Shown: positions 361 through 7,463 of the stretch, in pieces
Position numbering within the stretch: position 1 is the stretch's first letter
Layout of the letters: the number at the start of each line of letters is the position of its first letter
Assembly: GCA_040757115.1 (NCBI GenBank)
Contig: JBFLYA010000184.1
Location: forward strand, 1 to 7,464
DNA: 7,464 nt
Direction: 5' to 3'
Source: a bacterium
GTDB taxonomy: Bacteria > UBA9089 > CG2-30-40-21 > SBAY01
The notes under the pieces: model-generated
The model's database searches: none
Told to the model about the DNA's origin: nothing
What the model saw: only the letters and a program-made list of their open reading frames with translations
Translations under genes and position numbers: made by a program

Positions 361-2118
361 ATGAAAAGAACTCATACTAATGGCGAATTACGACTTAAAG
401 ATGAAAATAAACAGGTTACATTGCTTGGCTGGGTCAACCGTCGACGGGACCACGGCGGATTGATATTTATTGACCTGCGAGACCGCGAAGGAATTACTCA
501 AATTGTATTTAATCCTGAAATAGATGAGATTTCTCATGCCCAGGCTCATAACCTAAGACCTGAATTTGTCATTGGCATCCATGGCTATGTCAGACCAAGA
601 CCTAAAGGCACGGCGAACCCTAATTTACCTACGGGTGAGATTGAGGTTATTGCCAATCATCTTGAGATTATTAATCCTTCTAAAACACCACCTTTTTTAA
701 TCGATGAGACGATAAATGTCTCAGAAGATACAAGATTAAAATATAGATTTTTAGACCTGCGCAGACCTTCTTTACAAAAAAACCTTATTCTGAGACATAA
801 AATATATCAGGCAACTCGAAAATATCTTGATGAGCAAGGATTTATTGAGGTAGAAACACCAATGCTCATTAAAAGCACACCAGAAGGGGCACGGGATTAT
901 TTAGTTCCCAGTCGTGTCAATCCAGGTAAGTTTTATGCCTTACCTCAATCCCCACAACTATTTAAACAAATTCTAATGTGTGCCGGATATGATAAATATT
1001 TTCAGATTGCCAAATGTTTTCGTGATGAAGACCTGCGGGCAGACCGCCAACCAGAATTTACGCAGGTTGATATAGAAATGTCGTTTATTGATGAAGAGGA
1101 TGTTTTTGAGGTCATCGAAGGGTTTATTGCCACGATATTTAAAGTTGGACTTGATTTAGATGTCCCAATTCCCTTTAAAAGAATTACCTTTAAAGAGGCG
1201 ATGGATAAATATGGCAAGGATAGTCCGGATGTTCGCTTTGGCTTAGAGTTAGTGGATATTACTGATCTGGCTAAGAAGAGTAAATTCCAGGTTTTTTCAA
1301 AAACCGTTGCTGGGAAAGGGCAGGTCAAAGGAATTAAAGTTCCAAAACCTGATTTTTCAAGAACTGACCTGGACTTTTTGACCTCTTTTGTCAGTATCTA
1401 TCGAGCAAAAGGACTTGCCTGGTTTAAGGTCAAAGAAAAAACGCTGGAATCATCAATTGCTAAGTTTTTCAGTGAAGAAGAACAGATGGCGATTATTGAC
1501 CGATTTAAAGCAGATACGGATGATTTCCTGTTATTTGTCGCAGATACTCCAAAGGTTGTTGCCGATAGTCTGGCTAATTTGAGATTACATCTGGCAGATA
1601 AATTTAATTTAATTCCTCAAGAATTTAATTTTATCTGGGTAGTCGATGCCCCATTAGTTGAATATGATGATGAAGAAAAAAGATATGTCGCCGTCCATCA
1701 TCCATTTACCTCACCAAAGGAAGAAGACTATCCATTAATCGAGACTAATCCTGGCCAGGTTCGTGCAAGGGCTTATGACCTGGTTTTAAATGGGATAGAG
1801 ATAGGTGGTGGTTCAATCAGGATTCATCGCCGGGATATTCAAGAGCGGGTATTCAAATTATTGAAGATAGAAGAAAATGAAGCAAAAGAGAAATTTGGCT
1901 TTTTATTAGAGGCATTAGAATATGGCGCCCCGCCACACGGCGGGATTGCCTTTGGATTGGATAGATTATTACGGTTAATGGTTGGTGCTGACTCAATCCG
2001 CGAGGTAATTGCCTTCCCTAAAACACAAAGTGCTACCTGTTTGATGACCGATGCCCCATTTGAAGTATCCAATAAACAGTTGAAAGAATTAAGTATTGAA
2101 GTCAGACCCCACGAATAA
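361..2118 (+). CDS. aspS: Aspartate--tRNA(Asp/Asn) ligase, bacterial type, probably non-discriminating
   Basis: Class II cytosolic synthetase that charges tRNA-Asp with aspartate. The 585 residues match the usual bacterial length (about 590). Order: OB-fold anticodon-binding domain (about 1-105), then a catalytic core interrupted by the bacterial GAD domain (about 290-410). Visible marks are TPEGARDYLVPSR leading to QSPQLFKQ (196-203), motif 2 FRDEDLRADRQPEFTQ (220-235, with R221), GGGSIRIH, and motif 3 GLDRL (R535). In the anticodon domain, RRRDHGG puts His at 31 and RPRPKG puts Gly at 83. E. coli, which is discriminating, has Leu30 and Lys at the matching places, whereas His and Gly are linked to non-discriminating enzymes that also make Asp-tRNA-Asn for GatCAB. 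That last step is inference. Start is set by AAGGGAG 8 bases upstream. A glgA promoter begins 2 bases after the stop, and a tRNA-Asp gene lies about 3.8 kb downstream. Confidence 0.97.
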   Translation: MKRTHTNGELRLKDENKQVTLLGWVNRRRDHGGLIFIDLRDREGITQIVFNPEIDEISHAQAHNLRPEFVIGIHGYVRPRPKGTANPNLPTGEIEVIANHLEIINPSKTPPFLIDETINVSEDTRLKYRFLDLRRPSLQKNLILRHKIYQATRKYLDEQGFIEVETPMLIKSTPEGARDYLVPSRVNPGKFYALPQSPQLFKQILMCAGYDKYFQIAKCFRDEDLRADRQPEFTQVDIEMSFIDEEDVFEVIEGFIATIFKVGLDLDVPIPFKRITFKEAMDKYGKDSPDVRFGLELVDITDLAKKSKFQVFSKTVAGKGQVKGIKVPKPDFSRTDLDFLTSFVSIYRAKGLAWFKVKEKTLESSIAKFFSEEEQMAIIDRFKADTDDFLLFVADTPKVVADSLANLRLHLADKFNLIPQEFNFIWVVDAPLVEYDDEEKRYVAVHHPFTSPKEEDYPLIETNPGQVRARAYDLVLNGIEIGGGSIRIHRRDIQERVFKLLKIEENEAKEKFGFLLEALEYGAPPHGGIAFGLDRLLRLMVGADSIREVIAFPKTQSATCLMTDAPFEVSNKQLKELSIEVRPHE

Positions 2119-3670: not shown

Positions 3671-5083
3671 ATGGTTCGAGTAAGATTTGCTCCGGCACCA
3701 ACAGGATATTTGCATCTTGGAGGCGCCAGAACAGCTCTTTTTAATTGGCTTTTTGTTAAACAACAGCAGGGTAAATTCATTTTACGCATAGAAGATACGG
3801 ATGTTAAACGGTCAACTGATGAGAGTGTAAATGCCATCCTCGACAGTCTGAAGTGGCTTGGCATCACCTGGGATGAGGGACCTTATTTTCAATCCCAAAG
3901 AACCCATATCTATCAAGAGTATGCAAAGAAATTATTACAGGATAATCAAGCATATTATTGTTATTGTTCCCCATCTGAATTAGAGATTCTTCGTAAAAAG
4001 GCAACTGGGGAGGCGCCAGGATATGATGGTCGGTGTAGAAACCTGTCCCCAACTCAGCGTCAGGAATATGAATCTTCTGGCAGAAAACCCACGATTAGAT
4101 TTAAATCGCCATCTGGACTAACTCAAGTAAATGATTTAATTCGAGGTAAAGTGTCTTTTGATAATGCCTTGTTTGGTGATTTTATCATTTTTAAATCAGA
4201 TGGGATGCCAACTTATAATTTTGCCTGCATCATAGATGATGCCTTGATGGAGATTACCCATGTCATTCGTGGTGAAGACCATATTTCTAACACCCCCCGC
4301 CAGATTTTATTATATCAAGCATTAGGATTTAAAATACCAGTATTTGCTCATCTACCCTTGATTTTGGGATTGGATAAAACGCCATTGAGTAAACGACATG
4401 GAGATGTTGCGATTGAACATTACCGGCAAGAAGGCTATTTGCCAGAGGCACTTATGAATTATCTCGCCCTTTTAGGTTGGTCAACGCCGCAAAGTCAGCA
4501 AATCTTTTCTAAAGAAGAATTATTAATAAAATTCTCCATAGACCGTGTCAGTAAAAACCCCGCTATCTTTGATTTAGAAAAACTACGCTGGTTAAATGGG
4601 GAATATATCAGAAGATTAGATATAGATTCACTGACCGTGTTATGTTGGGAATACTTAAATAAAATTCGAAATTCGAAATTTGAAATTCGAAATTTGAAAT
4701 TTAAAGAGATAGTAAGACTTTTTCAGGAACGGATAAAGACACTTTCAGATTTTGTTAAACAAGCAGAATTTTTCTTTGTGAACAGCCCTAAATATCACCC
4801 ATCTGCCGTTGAGCAAATCCTGATGAAAGACGGCGTCCGTCAAATTTTAGAACAGGTAAAAGATAGATTGGTTCAATTAGAACCGTTTGATACGAATTCT
4901 ATTGAGAAAACTATTCGTGAATTAGCCGACCAGCTAAAAATAAAAGCCTCAGACATCATCCATCCTTTACGAGTAGCATTAACTGGAGATAAAGTTAGTC
5001 CAGGATTGTTTGAAGTAGTCGCTTTATTAGGAAAAGAAAAAGTCCAGGAAAGACTCATTAAAAGAAGGTGGGAAAATGGATAA
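3671..5083 (+). CDS. gltX: Glutamate--tRNA ligase (class I GluRS)
   Basis: Cytosolic synthetase that charges tRNA-Glu. The 470 residues fit the bacterial family. The catalytic domain starts with VRFAPAPTG and HLGG (15-18, the HIGH motif with Leu in place of Ile/Val). A zinc-type knuckle follows: Cys97, Cys99 and Cys122, with Asn124 where E. coli has the fourth ligand His. Next come VIRGEDHISNTPRQ and the KMSKS equivalent DKTPLSKRHG (235-244). The helical anticodon-binding region ends in PLRVALTG and GLFEVVALLGKE. Residues 331-345 are encoded by a 7-bp tandem DNA repeat yet keep the frame and roughly the normal linker length. The AAGGG at 3656-3660 is a modest ribosome site, 10 bases from the ATG. 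The last 8 bases overlap purN. Discriminating versus tRNA-Gln-charging specificity cannot be read from this alone. Confidence 0.96.
   Translation: MVRVRFAPAPTGYLHLGGARTALFNWLFVKQQQGKFILRIEDTDVKRSTDESVNAILDSLKWLGITWDEGPYFQSQRTHIYQEYAKKLLQDNQAYYCYCSPSELEILRKKATGEAPGYDGRCRNLSPTQRQEYESSGRKPTIRFKSPSGLTQVNDLIRGKVSFDNALFGDFIIFKSDGMPTYNFACIIDDALMEITHVIRGEDHISNTPRQILLYQALGFKIPVFAHLPLILGLDKTPLSKRHGDVAIEHYRQEGYLPEALMNYLALLGWSTPQSQQIFSKEELLIKFSIDRVSKNPAIFDLEKLRWLNGEYIRRLDIDSLTVLCWEYLNKIRNSKFEIRNLKFKEIVRLFQERIKTLSDFVKQAEFFFVNSPKYHPSAVEQILMKDGVRQILEQVKDRLVQLEPFDTNSIEKTIRELADQLKIKASDIIHPLRVALTGDKVSPGLFEVVALLGKEKVQERLIKRRWENG
4662..4703 (+). repeat. AAATTYG heptamer array inside gltX
   Basis: Six consecutive 7-bp units read AAATTCG, AAATTCG, AAATTTG, AAATTCG, AAATTTG, AAATTTA. 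Three times seven is 21 bases, so the array encodes a 7-residue amino-acid repeat (IRNSKFE then IRNLKFK, residues 332-345) without breaking the frame. It sits in the variable linker of the helical anticodon-binding region of GluRS, not in a catalytic segment. Its period matches the non-coding arrays elsewhere in the window. Confidence 0.85.
5064..5072 (+). promoter_or_regulatory. Ribosome binding site of purN inside the gltX end
   Basis: GAAGGTGGG lies within the last codons of gltX, 3 bases before the ATG at 5076 (7 bases counted from the GAAGG core). The 8-base overlap (ATG 5076, gltX TAA ending 5083) suggests translational coupling of the two genes. Confidence 0.6.
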
Positions 5084-6010: not shown

Positions 6011-6048
6011 TTAGTTTGAATAATTTCGGCAAACAAATATCTTTTTTT
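6011..6048 (+). terminator. Weak candidate terminator after the tRNA genes
   Basis: GTTTG (6014-6018) can pair with CAAAC (6030-6034) around an 11-base loop, and a run of seven T (6042-6048) begins 7 bases later. The stem is short and poor in G and C, and the T-run is offset, so this is only a weak candidate. It is still the one T-tract between the tRNAs and the next gene. Confidence 0.3.
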
Positions 6049-6064
6049 GTAACCATTCACCTCA

Positions 6065-6081
6065 CCACAGAGACACAGAGA
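6065..6081. repeat. CACAGAGA direct repeat (two units)
   Basis: CACAGAGA occurs twice in tandem (6066-6073 and 6074-6081), preceded by a C. The CCACAGA start is shared with the inverted arms at 135 and 325, which hints at one dispersed repeat family. The rest of 6007-6107 shows no gene. Confidence 0.4.
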
Positions 6082-6107
6082 CGAACCAACCTTGCTCACA
6101 AAAAACC

Positions 6108-6136
6108 TTGACTTTTTTAGCCGCATCTTCTATAAT
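6108..6136 (+). promoter_or_regulatory. Near-consensus promoter of the Rpn-family gene
   Basis: TTGACT (6108-6113), a 17-base spacer and a perfect TATAAT (6131-6136) give a strong housekeeping-type promoter 27 bases before the ATG. Transcription would start at about 6143 and leave a leader of roughly 20 bases holding AGGAGG (6153-6158), 5 bases from the start codon. The gene therefore looks expressed and not a silent remnant. Confidence 0.8.
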
Positions 6137-6163
6137 AGAGATTGAAATAAAGAGGAGGTAGCA

Positions 6164-7090
6164 ATGAAAATATCCAATCCTCATGATGTCTTCTTTAAAG
6201 AGGTCTTTTCTGATAAAGAAAGAGTTGTTGATTTCATCAACTCTACTTTACCTGAGGAGTTGAAGAAAAATCTTGACCTATCAACCCTAGTGTTAGATAA
6301 TAATTCTTATATCGATGAGGAACTAAAGGAGAATTTCGCGGATATAGTTTATAATTGTCTCTACAGTGGCAAGGTCAATATCAAGATTTCACTTTTATTT
6401 GAGCATAAGAGTAAGCCAGTGAAATATCCACATTTACAGCTTCTCAGGTATATGCTGAAGATATGGGAGAGGAATATCAAGCAGAAAGAACAGTTAATTC
6501 CCATAGTTCCGCTTATCTTTTATCATGGTAAGCAGAGGTGGGAATTAAGAAAGTTGAGTGATTATTTTGAGGGAATAGATGAGGTATTGAAGGGATATTT
6601 ACCCGAGTTTAATTATTTATTGACCGATTTATCCTGTTATAGTGATGAGGAGTTAAAAGGGAGGGTATTTATAAATGAAGCCTTAAAGGTTTCATTATTG
6701 GTATTGAAGAATATCTTTGATAAGAAGAGATTGAGGGAGCATATAGAGGGATTTTTTGCGATAGGGAAGATGTATTATGAAGAGGAACGAGGGTTAAAGT
6801 TTTTAGAAGGGGTAATTCGGTATATTTATAGTAGCACAGAGATTAAGCCAGAAGAGGTGATAGAGGCGGTTAAAAGTGTTTCTGAAAAAGGAGGTGAGGT
6901 AGCAATGACTACAGCTGTGAAATTAAGAGAGCAGGGATTACAGCAAGGATTACAGCAGGGATTACAGCAGGGTGCGTATAATAAAGCGGTAGAGACTGCT
7001 AAGTATTTGTATAGTAAGGGAGTTGATTTAGAGCTAATTGCTGAAGCAACAAAATTGTCACTTGATGAGTTGAAACGGCTTATCAATTAA
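6164..7090 (+). CDS. Rpn family recombination-promoting nuclease / putative transposase (PD-(D/E)XK)
   Basis: 308 residues resembling the Rpn/YhgA-like group (formerly Transposase_31). E. coli RpnA is a DNA endonuclease that raises RecA-independent recombination, and some Rpn proteins act as phage-defence toxins. Visible here: the N-terminal family start NPHDVFFKEVFSD (5-17), a nuclease core with Asp60 (FADIVY) and Glu80-x-Lys82 (LLFEHKSKP), and the conserved PLIFYHGK (116-123). The middle is helical, and the C-terminus has three GLQQ units (258-269) and a final helical domain of about 40 residues. The catalytic set looks intact. It has its own strong promoter and AGGAGG site. No transposase partner, target duplication or inverted ends directly flank it. 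An internal in-frame start at 6905 may make the last 61 residues as a separate protein. Whether this copy cuts DNA or defends the cell is inference. Confidence 0.88.
   Translation: MKISNPHDVFFKEVFSDKERVVDFINSTLPEELKKNLDLSTLVLDNNSYIDEELKENFADIVYNCLYSGKVNIKISLLFEHKSKPVKYPHLQLLRYMLKIWERNIKQKEQLIPIVPLIFYHGKQRWELRKLSDYFEGIDEVLKGYLPEFNYLLTDLSCYSDEELKGRVFINEALKVSLLVLKNIFDKKRLREHIEGFFAIGKMYYEEERGLKFLEGVIRYIYSSTEIKPEEVIEAVKSVSEKGGEVAMTTAVKLREQGLQQGLQQGLQQGAYNKAVETAKYLYSKGVDLELIAEATKLSLDELKRLIN
6888..6897 (+). promoter_or_regulatory. Internal Shine-Dalgarno within the Rpn-family gene
   Basis: AAGGAGGTGA is fully complementary to the usual 16S rRNA 3' end. It lies inside the coding region, with 10 bases between GGAGG and the in-frame ATG at 6905. 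The overlapping GAGGTAGCAATG (6896-6907) repeats exactly the 12 bases around the main start (6155-6166). Confidence 0.6.
6905..7090 (+). CDS. Possible intragenic small protein (C-terminal 61 residues of the Rpn gene)
   Basis: Starting at Met248 of the long protein, in frame, a product of 61 residues would begin MTTAVKLREQG. It would contain all three GLQQ units and the final helical domain, ending DELKRLIN. The evidence is the optimal internal ribosome site 6888-6897 and the 12-base match to the main start. In E. coli Rpn genes, small proteins made from internal starts and matching the C-terminus have been reported to block toxicity of the full-length protein; the same role here is inference. 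No clear internal promoter was found: TATATT at 6821-6826 has no good -35 partner. The small protein could come from the full message. It could also not be made at all, because the match to a ribosome site may be dictated by the GGEVAM codons. Confidence 0.45.
   Translation: MTTAVKLREQGLQQGLQQGLQQGAYNKAVETAKYLYSKGVDLELIAEATKLSLDELKRLIN
6935..6970 (+). repeat. 12-bp direct repeat encoding GLQQ
   Basis: GGATTACAGCAA (6935-6946), then two copies of GGATTACAGCAG (6947-6958 and 6959-6970), encode GLQQ three times. Units differ at only one base, which indicates recent expansion or ongoing conversion. Because the unit is four codons long, gain or loss keeps the frame and would only change the length of the linker before the C-terminal domain. 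Confidence 0.9.
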
Positions 7091-7226
7091 GATGTTGAGG
7101 TAAAAAGTCTTACAAAGCAGAAAAATTAGTTAAGAGACAGCAAAGCAGGTTGTTATATGCACCGAAGGTGCAAAGGAATCGTAGCCATGGGTTTGAACCT
7201 ACGGAAGATTAGCTTGAAAATTAATT
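7091..7226. repeat. Gene-free stretch with small hairpins downstream of the Rpn gene
   Basis: No open frame with a credible start is present. TGCACC (7158-7163) and GGTGCA (7167-7172) form a 6-bp stem with a GAA loop. CGTAG (7180-7184) and CTACG (7199-7203) can form a second stem. Neither is followed by a T-tract, so they are not good terminators for the Rpn gene. They look like small palindromic intergenic repeats. Confidence 0.4.
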
Positions 7227-7463
7227 GTAACCGTTCAGGCTATATATCAAAAGTGTAAGAAAGGGGATAAGGAGATAAGAGTGATATGGAGATAAGATAA
7301 TAGAAATAGATTGAAATTTATAGAAATAGGTAGAAATTGATTGTGGAAAACAACAAATTTCCATAAATTTCTATTAGTTTCTATTAATTTCAATTTTTTT
7401 AATAATATCTCCCTATCTCCTTAATCTCCACATCTCCTTTTGTTACACCACCTGAACGCTTAC
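7227..7463. mobile_element. MITE-like palindromic element, about 237 bp
   Basis: The ends GTAACCGTTCAGG (7227-7239) and CCTGAACGCTTAC (7451-7463) are inverted copies matching at 12 of 13 positions. Inside, GTGTAA (7253-7258) faces TTACAC (7443-7448). A GGAGATAA-rich block (7263-7302) faces ATCTCC units (7407-7439), and TAGAAAT units (7301-7336) face ATTTCTA units (7358-7393). The arms close on TTGT/ACAA around a 5-base loop at 7345-7349. The element has no coding capacity. Small size, inverted ends and near-complete self-pairing fit a non-autonomous element or a giant extragenic palindrome. A target duplication cannot be judged because the window ends one base after the right end. Confidence 0.6.

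Follow-up and report, generated by a model that had tools for sequence, protein, structure and literature searches.

The closest described systems to the gene considered here are the Rpn nucleases of Escherichia coli. RpnA is inactivated by mutation of the catalytic residues, which include D11, D63, E82 and Q84 (Kingston et al., PMC5350276), and its Met244 was proven by mutation to be an internal start (Zhong et al. 2023, PMC10327210). The small product inhibits in all of RpnA, RpnB, RpnC and RpnP2. The same work describes a Clostridioides difficile Rpn, for which mutation of the ribosome-binding site or start abolishes RpnS, and a distribution over 34 bacterial phyla. Zhong et al. also present the dimeric structure 7TH0, with the C-terminal domain as an oligomerisation module (PMC10327210). 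From the E. coli genes and the one C. difficile gene, internal antitoxins were proposed to be general in the Rpn family.

The gene studied here lies in a window of 7,464 nucleotides, the whole stretch of DNA that was analysed, and it is very probably an RpnL/RpnS gene-within-gene toxin-antitoxin unit as in Zhong et al. 2023. A sequence-only reading of the window had likened the arrangement to that of enterobacterial Rpn toxins. The likeness stands, with Met248 of the window protein sharing an alignment column with E. coli RpnA Met244, but "enterobacterial" is too narrow because the C. difficile case and the 34 phyla had already been reported (PMC10327210).

The full-length gene and its internal start

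The features of the locus are the following, with their basis in brackets.

6108..6136, + strand: sigma-70-like promoter of rpn, TTGACT-17-TATAAT (11 of 12 consensus positions; a consensus match only)
6153..6159, + strand: Shine-Dalgarno of the full-length rpn start, AGGAGGT (duplex energy -12.8 kcal/mol)
6164..7090, + strand: rpnL, 308-residue Rpn family PD-(D/E)XK nuclease, predicted toxin (PF04754, TIGR01784, model)
6176..6778, + strand: Transposase_31/PD-(D/E)XK nuclease domain, residues 5-205 (Pfam, alignment, VIA-align)
6888..6897, + strand: internal Shine-Dalgarno, AAGGAGGTGA (exact match; anti-SD duplex energy)
6905..6907, + strand: internal start codon ATG, residue 248 (in frame with 6164-7090; aligned to E. 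coli RpnA Met244)
6905..7090, + strand: rpnS, 61-residue C-terminal product, predicted antitoxin (profile, Foldseek, superposition on 7TH0)
6935..6970, + strand: three 4-residue repeats, (GLQQ)x3, first RpnS helix (sequence)
6971..7087, + strand: C-terminal helix-turn-helix-like domain of RpnS (model of the 61-residue product, Foldseek)

The open reading frame at 6164-7090 is assigned to its family by Pfam PF04754 (Transposase_31, E 3.5e-46) and NCBIfam TIGR01784 (E 3.8e-27). Its catalytic residues are intact, as RpnA D11, D63, E82 and Q84 align with D8, D60, E80 and K82 of the window protein. The AlphaFold2 model of the full 308-residue protein (mean pLDDT 91.5) comprises the nuclease core, one long helix spanning residues 241-284 and containing Met248, and then two short helices. 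PD-(D/E)XK nucleases such as EndoMS, Shedu and restriction enzymes match model residues 4-159 with Z of 5-7 in VIA-align. A Foldseek search of the full-length model against the PDB gave zero significant matches, and PADLOC gave a single match (E 2.1e-6), to a weak model called putative invertase.

The sequence-only reading had pointed to a strong ribosome site inside the coding region followed by an in-frame ATG at 6905. Both are there: the site is exact at 6888-6897 and the ATG is codon 248, which leaves 61 residues. The sequence AAGGAGGTGA is unique in the window even when one mismatch is allowed, and its spacing to the ATG is ordinary. Among the window's five protein-coding genes, with Shine-Dalgarno strength taken as the anti-SD duplex energy upstream of each in-frame ATG, the internal site (-17.7 kcal/mol) is at the top of 27 internal in-frame ATGs, the runner-up reaching -7.7 kcal/mol, and all five annotated starts are weaker (-4.1 to -12.8 kcal/mol). 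Synonymous recodings of the window gene, which keep the peptide KGGEVA, have an average strength of -12.6 kcal/mol and equal the native site in 7% of cases (P 0.07), because the peptide KGGE itself supplies much of the Shine-Dalgarno. The proof therefore comes from the homologues and not from the window gene by itself.

Other explanations of the site at the nucleic acid level were considered. A chance Shine-Dalgarno is ruled out by controls within the window and within the family, and mRNA structure was set aside as a regulator, the folds of 6870-6940 (z 0.69) and 6850-6960 (z -1.26) being not unusual. No sigma-70-like promoter for rpnS, of the kind reported in E. coli, was found at 6700-6888 on the + strand, in a scan that leaves room for one.

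Anatomy and predicted function of the small product

The small product had been predicted to consist of the repeat region plus the C-terminal domain, and this description is borne out: 10 residues are followed by three GLQQ tetrads and a C-terminal helical domain. The repeats begin at residue 11 of the product, which fits the family span of 8-20 residues past the Met. Tetrad number varies from 2 to 11 among the paralogues, in line with the hypervariability reported for the family, and two very similar genes (L049 and L050) have 3 and 11. Modelled alone, the 61 residues form three helices (mean pLDDT 79), for which the best PDB match in Foldseek is 7TH0, E. coli RpnA-S (probability 0.97, TM 0.75 on the target). 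VIA-align places residues 260-305 of the model on 7TH0 with 1.3 A over all 46 residues and a Z of 7.2, a modest value by itself for a short helical match. An RpnS profile built without any E. coli row also finds 7TH0 (E 1e-8), aligned from residue 1. The small product is thus predicted to be a three-helix C-terminal domain like that of RpnAS.

Anatomy by itself does not separate an inhibitor from an activator. The small protein might be made and yet help the nuclease, activating or assembling it as a structural subunit or a stabiliser, comparable to Cas11d for Cas10d, a precedent cited in PMC10327210, and the oligomerisation role of the C-terminal domain in the 7TH0 dimer (PMC10327210) would suit such a part. 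We consider this very improbable, however, given that the closest tested homologues, RpnA, RpnB, RpnC and RpnP2, are all inhibited by their small product and that decayed loci retain the small frame without the nuclease, as would be expected of an antitoxin. Two such rpn loci lack the nuclease frame and keep the RpnS frame and Shine-Dalgarno intact, as possible orphan antitoxins:

L053, 504-743, + strand: decayed rpn remnant with RpnS frame and Shine-Dalgarno
L040, ORF 1168-1384, minus strand: decayed second rpn copy with RpnS frame and Shine-Dalgarno

These are the only real rpnS remnants among the short C-terminal matches. Most of the others (L044, L046, L047, L055 and L062-L064) were rejected as stand-alone rpnS, being genes cut by contig ends.

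Conservation of the internal start beyond the needs of the protein

About 90 homologous sequences were compared. Eighty were drawn from a wide spread of phyla, and to these were added E. coli RpnA and RpnB, the three further intact copies in the window's own genome and related genes from other genomes of its genus and phylum. With the exception of L071, every homologue outside Bacteroidota that has a residue at the Met248 column carries a start codon there or at most a few residues away. Among 76 distinct sequences outside that phylum this is ATG in 72 and GTG in 3, and in the remaining one (L135) a neighbouring TTG was scored, with ATG as the codon right after it. A Shine-Dalgarno of -7 kcal/mol or stronger precedes the internal start in 72 of the 76, whereas the nuclease parts of these genes contain 323 further internal ATGs, of which 15 have one. 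At -10 kcal/mol the counts are 57 of 76 and 1 of 323. When each gene is recoded synonymously with its own codons, the native site is stronger than the average of the recoded versions in 71/76 (Wilcoxon 2.7e-13, on sequences that are phylogenetically non-independent). When the nucleases outside Bacteroidota are clustered at 60% identity the Shine-Dalgarno is found in 33/35, and at 45%, which leaves just 10 groups, in 10/10.

Bacteroidota are a phylum that is generally not reliant on Shine-Dalgarno sequences. Their homologues have a median of -1.1 kcal/mol, mostly keep the ATG, and for the most part have neither the Shine-Dalgarno nor the Gly-Gly segment. The start codon is missing at the column in four of them as well as in L071, and some homologues have weak sites. 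One sequence labelled Bacteroidetes, L144, does have a Shine-Dalgarno; it is the only such case in the comparison and derives from a metagenome bin.

The Shine-Dalgarno and Met could in principle be by-products of a conserved KGGExxM segment at the junction between nuclease and C-terminal domain, with no internal translation at all. The peptide does favour this to a degree, as KGGE tends to encode AGGAGG and the recodings stay strong on average (-12.6 kcal/mol), and some Bacteroidota without a Shine-Dalgarno nevertheless have Met at the column. Yet the Shine-Dalgarno core, while staying at initiation distance, takes each of the three codon phases with respect to the ATG (in 47, 11 and 19 homologues), and the peptides at the site differ: KGGEVAM in the window gene, and KHKESLM, EGSEVVM, EMEVETM, REEAIM and KEVIM elsewhere. 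In RpnA the site reads AAG GAG AGT TTA ATG, or K-E-S-L-M, and both RpnA and RpnB use AAG GAG in another phase than the window gene before the same aligned Met. Codon choice in the Gly-Gly homologues points the same way. The first Gly is GGA or GGG in 30/30 genes (19 expected) and the second is GGT, the rarest Gly codon in those genes, in 27/30 against 5.0 expected; after clustering, GGT is found in 14/14 at 60% identity (expected 2.3) and in 4/4 at 45% (expected 0.5). Where Val replaces Met at the column, it is encoded by GTG in all three cases (L094, L123 and L150), while elsewhere in these genes GTG accounts for 15 of 56 Val codons.

Phase variety with differing peptides, together with the forced GGT, therefore indicates that the DNA signal is selected beyond the protein's need. 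Judged from these alignments, the internal Shine-Dalgarno and start codon are under DNA-level selection across phyla, and a by-product of the peptide is a very improbable account of them. The sequence-only reading had proposed such a homologue alignment, and had named as damaging a Gly-Gly segment kept with its Shine-Dalgarno lost. This was not seen as a pattern: among the Gly-Gly homologues only L099 has a site weaker than its own recodings, and it still reads GGAGGA at -10.0 kcal/mol. The position of the site exactly between nuclease and C-terminal module might also suit ribosome pausing that aids folding at the domain boundary without initiation, but this is hardly credible, as a start codon at fixed spacing would be superfluous for pausing and yet the column is near-universal with GTG as its sole frequent substitute, the homologous site is a proven start in E. 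coli, and the orphan loci without an upstream domain retain it.

The C-terminal domain that follows the internal start in the Rpn homologues is of one of two kinds, RpnAS-like or DUF4351-like. The comparison thus supports both the generality of the internal start in Rpn genes across phyla and a selection on start codon and Shine-Dalgarno whatever the peptide or the C-terminal domain that follows. A distant viral homologue is present at one locus (L161).

PDDEXK_2 nucleases and their C-terminal domains

The same genomes also encode PDDEXK_2 (PF12784) nucleases (L043, L045, L054, L065 and others; E 1.7e-45 for L043). They share with the Rpn proteins a PD-(D/E)XK nuclease, repeats of the GLQQ type and a similar kind of helical domain at the C-terminus, but the nuclease family differs and the internal Shine-Dalgarno and start are absent. 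A start codon with a strong Shine-Dalgarno near the junction was found in 0/19 inspected PDDEXK_2 sequences. Their best ATG, GTG or TTG sites, at -7 to -8 kcal/mol, fall within repeat units or near the C-terminus.

One rpn paralogue, L041, links the two groups. Its C-terminal DNA (L041 1758-1916) has 82-85% identity to the PDDEXK_2 genes L043, L044, L045 and L054 and about 71% to its Rpn kin L040 and L049, with which its nuclease DNA shares 82%. The closer match of the C-terminal part to PDDEXK_2 genes than to Rpn kin suggests that Rpn- and PDDEXK_2-type nucleases exchange C-terminal domains at the GLQQ repeats and that the internal start stays behind. If C-terminal specificity domains are exchanged and only Rpn genes keep the start, RpnS, orphans included, may therefore serve PDDEXK_2 nucleases, which lack an antitoxin from their own genes, as a shared antitoxin in trans, a doubtful extension of the model at present.

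Distribution and neighbourhood

The genome that contains the window has four intact rpn copies, and matches occur in 11/61 genomes, in keeping with the patchy, mobile distribution and variable copy number of the family. At the syntenic site of the sister genome G001 (L162), the two tRNAs and the rpn promoter are kept, and rpn itself persists for its first 52 nt (window 6164-6215), after which the sequence diverges into a repeat-rich stretch. As just these 52 nt of the gene are retained, rpn with its internal antitoxin has been lost in the sister genome. Contigs of G000, G001 and G008 often end inside GLQQ-type nuclease genes (L044, L046, L047, L055 and L062-L064), and copy numbers of such genes are probably underestimated because assembly breaks fall inside them.

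Several repeats were observed in the window. A palindromic element of ~240 bp at 7225-7463, with ends GTAACCGTTCAGG / CCTGAACGCTTAC and no ORF, has at least 40 copies of 98-100% identity in its own genome (scores cover 40 of the 483 initial candidates), and the sister genome has nearly 40; it is a very young MITE-like burst. Short dispersed repeats at 7156-7226 and 6038-6082, either side of rpn, have many copies in G008, a genome of the same phylum. An AT-rich repeat of AAATTCGAAATTTG units at 4659-4702 lies in frame within gltX, where it encodes NKIRNSKFEIRNLKFKE, and resembles an intergenic repeat gone into a gene.

Discussion

Our results make it very probable that the Rpn design known from E. 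coli extends to an unrelated and uncultured lineage. The long frame would make RpnL, a PD-(D/E)XK DNA endonuclease, and the second ribosome site at 6888-6897 would start translation at ATG 6905 to give the 61-residue RpnS, a repeat helix followed by the C-terminal three-helix domain. As established for the E. coli Rpn proteins, RpnS most likely pairs through its repeat helix with the same helix of RpnL and so keeps the nuclease inactive. Release of RpnS, probably upon phage infection, would then free RpnL for DNA cutting. Translation of RpnS, toxicity, inhibition and phage defence in this organism are inferred. What is new here is the DNA-level case for a selected internal start across phyla and the contrast with the PDDEXK_2 genes; the data suggest a simple rule for genome annotation and do not by themselves reveal a new mechanism.

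A more distant parallel is offered by Cas10d/Cas11d of type I-D CRISPR, in which a small C-terminal product likewise arises from an in-frame internal start in the same gene. The proteins are unrelated to Rpn, however, and the role of the small one is to assist, not to inhibit (PMC10327210). C. difficile Rpn (PMC10327210), likened here by description, also has an internally initiated RpnS outside Enterobacteria and belongs to a different lineage from the window gene. The nearest counterparts are E. coli RpnA/RpnAS (b3411), RpnB, RpnC, RpnD, RpnE and RpnP2. Like the window gene, they combine a Transposase_31 nuclease, in which the catalytic positions are the same, with a three-helix C-terminal domain that has 4-residue repeats, and they have an internal ribosome-binding site whose start is the homologous Met (Met244 in RpnA). 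Small products are of similar size, with 49 residues in RpnA, 53 in RpnB and 61 in the window gene. The differences lie in detail: overall identity of the window protein to RpnA and RpnB is 26-27%, the nuclease motif has Lys where RpnA has Gln84, and the three GLQQ repeats have no counterpart in RpnA. The Shine-Dalgarno is AAAGGAGGTGA read as K-G-G-E in the window gene, and AAGGAG read as K-E in E. coli.
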